Below are positions 25,945 through 27,959 of a DNA stretch of 64,000 nucleotides, in pieces; position 1 is the first letter of the stretch; every line of letters begins with the position of its first letter. Position numbers and translations under genes: made by a program. The notes beneath the pieces were generated by a model. That model saw nothing but the letters and a program-made list of their open reading frames with translations, was not told where the DNA came from and searched no databases. Source of the stretch: Planctomonas psychrotolerans (GTDB lineage Bacteria > Actinomycetota > Actinomycetes > Actinomycetales > Microbacteriaceae); contig NZ_SJEV01000002.1 of the NCBI RefSeq assembly GCF_008642235.1, positions 186,001 to 250,000 of the forward strand. The letters are read 5' to 3'.

Positions 25945-27306
25945 TCAGTCGGCCGGCGTCAGCACCGACACCGAGGTGTGGACGGACCCGTTGAAGGACA
26001 CCACCCGCCCGGACAGGGAGACGCCGCGCAGCCGTGCGTCGCCGGAGACCAGATACGACCCTGCGGCGATGGTGTCCGTCGACGATGTGGTCGAACCGAG
26101 GGTCGCGGTCGTGCCGACCACCCACCACACGTTCTCGGCCCGGGCGCCGTTGACCAGCACGATCTGTGCTCGCGCGGCCATCGTCAGCGTCGACGCCGGG
26201 CGGAAGACGAACTGGGCCCCGGGGTCTCCCCGGGCGTCGAGCACGAGCCTGCCGGGCACGGAGAATGCGCCGGTGCTCGATGCATACACGCCGGCCGACA
26301 GGGTCCCGGAGAGGGTCGGAGCGATCGTCGCGGTGATGGCGCGGGTGTGCAGCGCCGATCGTGCCGCAGTTGCTGCCGCCATGGCGTTCCGTGCCGCCGC
26401 ATTGGCGAGGTCGATGCGTCCGTCGATCTCGCGGGCCTTGTACCCGATGACGGTCGTGCCGGGCGTCGTGGCCACCGAGCCTCGAACGAAGCTGCCGTTG
26501 CCGAACCCGTTGTTGCTGTCATCCGTGATCGCGCTCGCCGCGATGATCCCGTATCCGGCCATGGATCCCACGGTCACCGGCGCCTGTGACCGCACCGACC
26601 ATGAGGCGGACGCCCGGGTCTGTCCCGAGAACGCGGCATCGGCCGAGCCGTGCGGCAGCATGGGCAGAGCCATCGCGGCGACCACTGCGACGGTGGTCCC
26701 GAGGGCTATCCGGCCGACCCGCGACCGACGCGGCCACCACGGCCGTCCCGATCGGCCACCGGGTGCACGTCGAGCACCTGGAGCGTTCGACCTGCTCCCG
26801 CCCAGGGAGGAGCCGACGACGAGAAGCGCGATCGCCGTGGCCGAGGCCCAGATGGCGAACGCGAACAGGTTCCCCGTGCCGATCCACAAGCTCGGCAGTC
26901 CGATCGCGGGCACCAGTATTCGTGCCTGACCGGTGATGTCCTCCCGCGCGGGCGACCACGGGTCGACCTCCGGATTGGCGTCCCCCGCCGTGACGATGGT
27001 GTTGTCGTCTCCCACCGTGACCAGCCGGTGCACCACCTGGGTGTCGTCCACCAGGAAGGTGATGACCCGGCCGAGGGGAAGCGGAGCAGTGTCGGCCAGC
27101 TTCGACGTCAGGACGACGTCTCCCGCCGACATGTTCGGCTCCATCGACCCGGACTGCACCACCGAGCCGCTCCAGCCGAGCAGCCCAGGCAGGATCGCCA
27201 TCGCGGTGAGCGTGGCGAGGAACATCAGGTACGACCTCGCGGACGACACGACGAGAAGCCCCGCCCAGCCGTCCCGCCAGAGGGAACGGCCGGACGGAGC
27301 GGTCAC
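25945..27306 (-). CDS. SipW-type signal peptidase fused to a DUF3494 ice-binding-like domain
   Basis: One continuous reading frame of about 453 residues. Residues 25-45 are a membrane segment, followed by an outside catalytic domain: SGSMEPNM (Ser54), DDTQVVHRL (His93) and TAGDANPEVD, the Ser-His arrangement of SipW/ER-type signal peptidases. A second membrane segment (146-168), an Arg/Gly/Pro-rich linker (170-199) and a third hydrophobic segment (200-217) lead to ADAAFSGQTR. Residues about 255-450 form a DUF3494 domain (VLDARGDPGAQFVFRPAST, VWWVVGTTATLG, FNGSVH). The positive-inside rule puts the linker in the cytoplasm and DUF3494 outside. Start taken as GTG 27306 with GGAAG upstream; GTG 27321 is possible. 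It follows the TasA-like gene by 23 bp. Confidence 0.85.
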   Translation of the reverse strand: MTAPSGRSLWRDGWAGLLVVSSARSYLMFLATLTAMAILPGLLGWSGSVVQSGSMEPNMSAGDVVLTSKLADTAPLPLGRVITFLVDDTQVVHRLVTVGDDNTIVTAGDANPEVDPWSPAREDITGQARILVPAIGLPSLWIGTGNLFAFAIWASATAIALLVVGSSLGGSRSNAPGARRAPGGRSGRPWWPRRSRVGRIALGTTVAVVAAMALPMLPHGSADAAFSGQTRASASWSVRSQAPVTVGSMAGYGIIAASAITDDSNNGFGNGSFVRGSVATTPGTTVIGYKAREIDGRIDLANAAARNAMAAATAARSALHTRAITATIAPTLSGTLSAGVYASSTGAFSVPGRLVLDARGDPGAQFVFRPASTLTMAARAQIVLVNGARAENVWWVVGTTATLGSTTSSTDTIAAGSYLVSGDARLRGVSLSGRVVSFNGSVHTSVSVLTPAD

Positions 27307-27329
27307 GGGCGGCTTCCGCACGGGTGCCG

Positions 27330-27959
27330 TTACTGGGCCGGGGTGGTGTTGCGGAACTCCCACACGAGGTCCGCGGTCATCGACGACCCCTGCAGGGCAT
27401 CGATCTGCTGCTGCGTCATGCCCGTGGTGTCGAAAGTCCACGTCCCGCGGTACGAACGCGATTCGCCGCCCGCCTTACCGGTCGTGATCCAGGAGTGACC
27501 GCCGGACGCATAGTCATGCCGGGCCGCGGCGACCACGGAAACCGGGTACGCCGTCTCCTGCACTCCGGCATCGGGGACGAAGCCGGTGCAGTCGTTGAAC
27601 GAACCGCCGGTGCCGGCTTCCAGCTTGTAGGTGATCCTCTCGGCGAGGCCGATCGCGGAGGGGGCGAGGTTCGTCACGTAGGACCGCACCTCGCCGGGCA
27701 CGGTTGCGGTCGACGTGACGACGAGGCATTTCGTGCCGGTCTGTCCGGGAACCAGATTGGTGACGGAGTAGGCCGCGACGCCCCGGTCGTCATCGGTCAG
27801 AGTGACCGACCCGGTGGACCAGGAGTTGCCCGCGTTACGGGTGGTGGCGGTGAAGGCGGCGGATGACGCCTGCCAGACCATACCTCCGGCGAGGAGGATG
27901 GCCACCGGTGCGGCGGACAGACCGAGGACGGTGCGGATGCGAGCCGAGGGCTTCTTCAT
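27330..27959 (-). CDS. TasA/camelysin-like SipW-dependent exported protein
   Basis: Product of 209 residues. A KKPSARIR start and hydrophobic segment (11-30) lead to SSAAFTATTRNAGNSWSTGSV, the alternate signal-peptide form cut by SipW-type peptidases. The mature part has the beta-sandwich pattern of TasA/CalY-type surface or fibre proteins (GVAAYSVTNLVPGQTGTKCLVV, a paired Cys at NDCTGF, RGTWTFDTTGM). GGAAAG precedes the ATG. It is first in an operon with the signal peptidase fusion, its probable processing enzyme. Expected location: cell surface or extracellular fibre. Confidence 0.8.
   Translation of the reverse strand: MKKPSARIRTVLGLSAAPVAILLAGGMVWQASSAAFTATTRNAGNSWSTGSVTLTDDDRGVAAYSVTNLVPGQTGTKCLVVTSTATVPGEVRSYVTNLAPSAIGLAERITYKLEAGTGGSFNDCTGFVPDAGVQETAYPVSVVAAARHDYASGGHSWITTGKAGGESRSYRGTWTFDTTGMTQQQIDALQGSSMTADLVWEFRNTTPAQ

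Follow-up and report, generated by a model that had tools for sequence, protein, structure and literature searches.

The window, a stretch of 64,000 nucleotides from Planctomonas psychrotolerans, holds two adjacent minus-strand genes, separated by 23 bp, whose combined span (25945-27959) lies on the smaller (G000:C2, 414,928 bases) of the two contigs of the genome. The first gene of the pair, P0002 (27330..27959, minus), encodes a TasA/camelysin-like exported protein of 209 aa. The second, P0001 (25945..27306, minus), starts with GTG and encodes a protein of 453 aa in which a signal peptidase is fused to a passenger domain; translation of this frame met no inner stop codon. An Rfam scan of the window returned no match.

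P0001 is arranged, all on the minus strand, as follows. Hydropathy indicates a first membrane span at about residues 27-43 (27178..27228), followed by the S26 catalytic domain defined by TIGR02228 (about residues 46-140, 26887..27171), a second span at about residues 148-164 (26815..26865), a basic linker predicted to be cytoplasmic (about residues 165-199, 26710..26814) and a third hydrophobic segment at about residues 200-216 (26659..26709), which we read as the h-region of an internal SipW-type signal. The sequence and its alignment place the predicted cleavage junction, A222-D223-A224 / A225-F226, at 26629..26643. Beyond it lie a TasA-type mature N-terminus, proposed to be a donor strand (about residues 225-243, including F226 and W236; 26578..26634), and a DUF3494/ice-binding-like passenger (residues 255-442, 25981..26544). 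The linker contains nine Lys/Arg and no Asp/Glu, and the corresponding linker has a net positive charge in 33 of the 36 fusions that we compared (see below). The original prediction, made from the sequence of this stretch, had described one open frame running from a peptidase through a second span, a basic linker and a third membrane segment into DUF3494, and translation, hydropathy and both domain models bear this out; the predicted topology likewise supports its placement of the C-terminal domain outside the membrane. It overlooked the SipW-type junction that ends the third segment (A222-D-A224 / A225-F226 ... W236), as well as the upstream camelysin-like gene with a similar junction.

The two halves of P0001 matched separate models. 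NCBIfam model TIGR02228 (signal peptidase I) matched the first half at 54 bits, above its cut-off of 51.85; the same model matched 36/36 fusions at E<=0.01, with four of eight other fusions checked falling below the cut-off. The Pfam match to Peptidase_S26 was sub-threshold only. Because the Bacillus SipW model NF046067 gave 38.4 bits, far below its cut-off of 190, we describe the enzyme as SipW-like and not as SipW itself. The best PDB matches of this half were SEC11C/SEC11A, and the enzyme has the Ser-His-Asp set of archaeal/ER-type signal peptidase I (TIGR02228, Sec11), from which it differs in what follows: TIGR02228 covers 158 positions of the peptidase part only, whereas P0001 continues into a signal and then an outside domain. 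Ser54 (27145-27147, in SGSM), His93 (27028-27030, in VVHR) and the motif GDANPEVD were found in the translation where the original prediction had put them. The Ser, the His and two Asp (Asp109, 26980-26982; Asp115, 26962-26964) are invariant in all 36 aligned fusions, those of the window, of locus L002 and of 34 others, and we take them, by established family knowledge, to be the active-site residues. The second half matched PF11999 (DUF3494) in Pfam at 92.8 bits against a cut-off of 28.7 (E 3.1e-26, residues 255-442), and its best PDB matches were the ice-binding proteins 5uyt and 6eio.

P0002 has an export signal of the SipW type that ends in SSA and is followed by AFTATTRNAGNSW. P0002 itself matched neither of the TasA models (PF12389 of Pfam, NF046066 of NCBIfam). 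In its family, represented by 36 aligned partners with a mean column identity of 51%, PF12389 (camelysin/TasA) was found in 20/36 and NF046066 in 6/36 at E<=0.1 (best 3.7e-6 and 1.4e-5, respectively), and the partner from Euzebya reaches the PF12389 cut-off. A partner-family profile gave six weak matches in the PDB up to E 10, none of them TasA. The folds modelled from two-sequence alignments were of poor quality (pLDDT 38.5 and 48.1, the latter for P0002); Foldseek gave no match at E<=0.001, with TasA absent among the 50 matches listed, and we set its list aside. The profile matches suggest that the P0002 family is TasA/camelysin-like and would provide the fibre-type subunit of the cassette proposed below.

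Searching 398 Microbacteriaceae genomes with P0001 gave matches in 203, free DUF3494 proteins and peptidases included. From the places listed we picked 40 regions, of which 34 held fusions; the others were unfused peptidases (L061, L062), a free DUF3494 (L063), regions of the window's own genome (L064, L065) and one that was left out (L073). With the window and L002, these 34 make up the set of 36 fusions, which was selected for resemblance to P0001; in 36/36 of this preselected set a P0002-type gene lies directly upstream on the same strand. Gryllotalpicola ginsengisoli, also of the Microbacteriaceae, carries the same two genes, with a full-length fusion that is 53% identical to P0001. To avoid the bias of a set chosen with P0001, we searched the 398 genomes with P0002 only, which identified 62 places in 46 genomes. 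At every one of the 57 places with E<1e-17 a fused peptidase lies downstream, at 43-509 bases from the partner (measured between profile matches) and with 106-744 residues beyond the third segment. The pairing of fusion and partner is therefore strict in this family: at 57/57 strong places, a peptidase and its predicted second substrate share one gene beside a fibre-type gene. Of the other five places, one adds a second match within L117, where a fusion is present. L141 holds a partner fragment with no adjoining peptidase, and L142 carries a distant peptidase whose tail is short. The partner profile finds nothing in L144 and L145 (E 8.7e-4 and 2.3e-4), L144 having an unfused SipW-type peptidase. 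The cassette is sporadic, and a genome of the same genus (G071) matched neither P0001 nor P0002. Two or three cassettes each are present in G035, G297, G326, G381, G031, G213 and G353, and also in G110, G217, G259, G329 and G356; in some genomes the passengers differ between cassettes, as in L070 versus L074 of G326. Across nine close pairs, dN/dS was 0.10-0.47 for the peptidase, 0.14-0.73 for the passenger and 0.17-1.04 for the linker, and both the peptidase and the passenger halves are under purifying selection.

The domain carried by the fusions varies. In the 36 fusions, Pfam at E<=0.01 found LamG (PF13385) in 19, PF11999 in four and other domains in fewer. The kinds of passenger are DUF3494, LamG, Ig-like and short unnamed domains, for some of which Pfam gave nothing of note, together with GH26 in Pseudarthrobacter. 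P0001 belongs to a modular class of peptidase-passenger fusions that goes with a TasA/camelysin-like partner. Neither a C-terminal hydrophobic span nor an LPXTG motif occurs in any of the 36 fusions. Four minimal forms (L109, L114, L116 and L119) consist of the signal and about 20 residues and nothing else, ending 16-22 residues after the third segment. Mapped onto the peptidase tree, passenger type requires 8 changes over six labels (unfused included; the least possible is 5), the labels being author-assigned: 'FN3like' was given by eye, with only a sub-threshold DUF6476 match in Pfam among five scanned, and 'BigIg' follows weak Pfam matches for L040 and a match over the cut-off for A. alpinus. 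A model of the fimbrial protein TafC (NF052521) matched 8/36 fusions at E<=0.01 and was rejected, its best score being 38 bits versus 410 and its matches lying in the passenger part only; P0001 has no such match.

Fused and free DUF3494 domains can be told apart. The four fused domains cluster in a single clade (100/99) that excludes 19 free domains. Free DUF3494/PF11999 proteins have an ordinary-looking signal and the domain begins soon after: read by eye, 2-12 residues follow the AxA in 17 free proteins (a count that omits two inner repeats of L030), versus about 18-20 in the four fused ones (L081, labelled free in this set by mistake, is the window itself), and the free proteins do not have the TasA-type N-terminal segment of the fused forms. 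Not all DUF3494 proteins are known to bind ice, and because passengers vary, ice binding is unlikely to be the general function of the class.

We also followed the partner beyond the family. At order rank, P0002 matched 27/297 genomes, and we read 20 regions, among them L117, which belongs to the same family as the window. Seven are fused (L101, L102, L103, L111, L115, L117 and L118), four are the minimal forms, five have an unfused peptidase beside the partner (L104, L105, L106, L108 and L110), three have no peptidase beside it (L107, L112 and L113), and L120 is unreadable owing to a run of N. At phylum rank, with matches in 23/296 genomes, four of 10 regions are fused (L154, L155, L156 and L162) and six have unfused peptidases. 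The original prediction had proposed looking for the peptidase-DUF3494 arrangement in other actinobacteria; a fused peptidase beside the partner is present in part of those sampled, with a variable passenger. Since unfused peptidases occur beside the same partner, the partner does not require a fused one. Most fused forms group together on a quick tree, among unfused ones, and the 'fused' state needs 8 changes, of which well-supported branches force 2; these labels were set by tail length alone, so that L120 is wrongly 'fused' and L142, with its distant peptidase, wrongly 'minimal'.

Five plasmid records were matched by P0002. On the plasmids of Arthrobacter alpinus A3 and Arthrobacter sp. TMP15 the fusion is annotated as an Ig-like protein, and on that of Pseudarthrobacter sp. 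BIM B-2242 as a glycosyl hydrolase, its passenger being PF02156 (GH26); the A. sulfonylureivorans record has partner pieces only. Annotations such as 'Ig-like' (WP_239437835.1) and 'glycosyl hydrolase' (WP_191082201.1) can hide an N-terminal peptidase. The annotated start of WP_191082201.1 (L079, 5677-7252) is a Met after the catalytic Ser, with the peptidase match starting further upstream. In Arthrobacter sp. TMP15 (L077, 9500-12328) the cassette is followed by genes for an Hpt-domain protein, an ice-binding family protein and a class F sortase. The Euzebya pacifica plasmid carries a comparable cluster (WP_114594680.1, WP_114594679.1, WP_114594678.1), with a SipW-type peptidase, a P0002-like partner and a surface protein adjoining, but as three separate genes. 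The Euzebya surface protein (L078, 5576-7660) has cell-wall-binding repeats and a C-terminal TasA-like piece (E 5e-5).

We compared the internal junctions of the fusions with those of the free partners. A profile built from the junctions of the 36 free partners only was run against the remaining 4,097 frames of these loci, generating 48 matches. The best 12 were all fusions, matched at the internal junction, with only six at E<0.01; 16/36 fusions were found in all, most at E>0.01. P0001, in which the second aromatic is closer by one residue, was not among these matches. With a profile of the mature side only, the best 5 of 24 matches were fusions at the junction. An aromatic residue follows directly on an AxA-like site in 70/70 fusions (66 with a longer passenger and the 4 minimal), as it does in the free partner. 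The pattern recovered 65 of these and the other five (L060, L066, L122, L130 and L133) were read by eye; because it missed these junctions and gave a wrong first match in L042, L047, L077 and L101, the letter counts are approximate. The AxA-aromatic arrangement alone is weak evidence, since the pattern is permissive and the stretches are Ala-rich. W236 of P0001 lies at +12 from the predicted cut, and a W/F at +11 to +14 occurs in only 31/65 fusions. With dN/dS from 0 to 2.19 in the nine close pairs, the putative donor segment shows no stronger conservation than the passenger, and the likeness of the junctions could reflect inheritance rather than functional constraint. The site found in every fusion, the partner-like junction in part of the set and the lack of any other C-terminal anchor in 36/36 are consistent with the original suggestion that the SipW-type enzyme may cut its own internal signal.

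SipW-TasA fibres are described from Bacillus and some other Firmicutes, and the way in which they start is a question of current interest. The N-terminal donor strand of TasA comprises residues 28-38, with F29, I32 and F39 making contacts, and TapA has an N-terminus similar to that of TasA and may supply the first strand (PMC9674648); TapA truncated to its N-terminal 1-57 gave proper biofilms, and the complete TapA fold limits TapA to the filament start (PMC10151520). The cassette resembles tapA-sipW-tasA of B. subtilis and sipW-tasA/calY of B. cereus in that a SipW-type peptidase is encoded with a TasA/camelysin-type partner. It differs in that peptidase and minor substrate are separate there, whereas here they form one polypeptide with swappable surface domains; sipW and bsaA of Clostridium perfringens are likewise described as separate genes (PMC7395162). 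Among the literature matches listed, from a search that had most subscription papers and all preprints outside it, none concerned a signal peptidase fused to its own substrate, and none brought SipW, or any signal peptidase, together with DUF3494 in one paper.

We propose that the pair forms a compact SipW-TasA system in which a substrate of the peptidase, serving as a TapA-like initiator or tip, is part of the peptidase chain and is cut in cis or in trans, a reading to which we give an even chance of being right. P0001 would be the dedicated SipW-type peptidase of P0002, the putative fibre-type subunit, and its C-terminus would be a second substrate composed of an internal SipW-type signal, a short TasA-like N-terminal segment and a surface domain. 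Besides P0002, the peptidase would cut the internal signal that it carries itself, at the Ala224-Ala225 bond of its own chain or of a neighbouring one, thereby freeing the passenger outside the membrane. The new N-terminus (AF..........W) could then serve as the donor strand with which a P0002 fibre begins or is capped, much as TapA may for TasA, leaving the passenger at the fibre end as an adhesin or tip. We reasoned that the passengers, with TasA-like first residues joined to a complete foreign domain, fit the role of TapA (minor substrate, helping to start the fibre), and hence a place at the fibre start or tip; the likeness to TapA is one of proposed role only. That a single chain serves as enzyme, membrane anchor and fibre-tip precursor, so that the peptidase carries, trims and delivers its own substrate, we hold more tentatively, at somewhat under an even chance. 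If the model is correct, there would be one tip per enzyme, and fibre number would be tied to peptidase number; passenger swaps would re-target the fibre, with the minimal forms carrying the initiating strand alone. The passengers are candidate tip adhesins with known folds, and with the cassette, cis cleavage by a signal peptidase could be tested directly.

The chief rival, which we consider possible but doubtful, is that the internal segment stays uncut as a third span, the peptidase then anchoring a domain outside the membrane that holds the P0002 fibre at its base or attaches to the surroundings. The hydrophobicity of the third segment is close to that of the other spans, no other anchor was found in 36/36 fusions, and in the minimal forms a tethered strand of 20 residues would be more sensible than a released peptide; however, the AxA-like site and aromatic in 70/70 fusions speak against it, as does the resemblance of that site, in part of the set, to the signal of the free partner. 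It is unlikely that the passenger is cut in trans by a separate SipW-type or housekeeping peptidase while the fused enzyme cuts only P0002. The genome does encode a second SipW-type protein above the TIGR02228 cut-off (G000:C1:409861-410283), as well as a weaker third match, but the separate SipW-type gene adjoins three other exported proteins (L064), and the catalytic residues of the fused enzymes are invariant in all 36. The signals of the neighbours of this unfused gene (L033; L064, 7727-8422) end, by eye, in YWS or LW, and the gene with its three exported proteins is perhaps a second, classical system.

Improbable, too, is the version put forward originally, in which the enzyme releases its own C-terminal domain as a free ice-binding or adhesive factor with no fibre link. 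The match of DUF3494 to ice-binding structures and the presence of a single PF11999 gene in the genome agree with it, yet most relatives read carry other passengers (19 LamG versus four PF11999 among the 36) and the TasA/camelysin-like gene is the constant companion at 57/57 places. Because the passengers vary while this companion does not, we favour a tip or initiator linked to the fibre over a free ice-binding factor. The architecture, the outside domain and the possible internal cut of the original prediction are supported, and ice binding is probably not the point of the arrangement. Finally, we reject as extremely improbable an artefact, whether a frameshift, a missed stop or a chance frame, or homologues always encoded as two genes, for which the one interrupted passenger frame, that of L038, might be quoted, given the Gryllotalpicola relative, the invariant residues, the fusion at every strong place in the family and dN/dS below 1 in both halves. 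In L038 (3952-6099) the fusion frame ends early and similar repeats continue in the next frame, the passenger there being either broken or misassembled.
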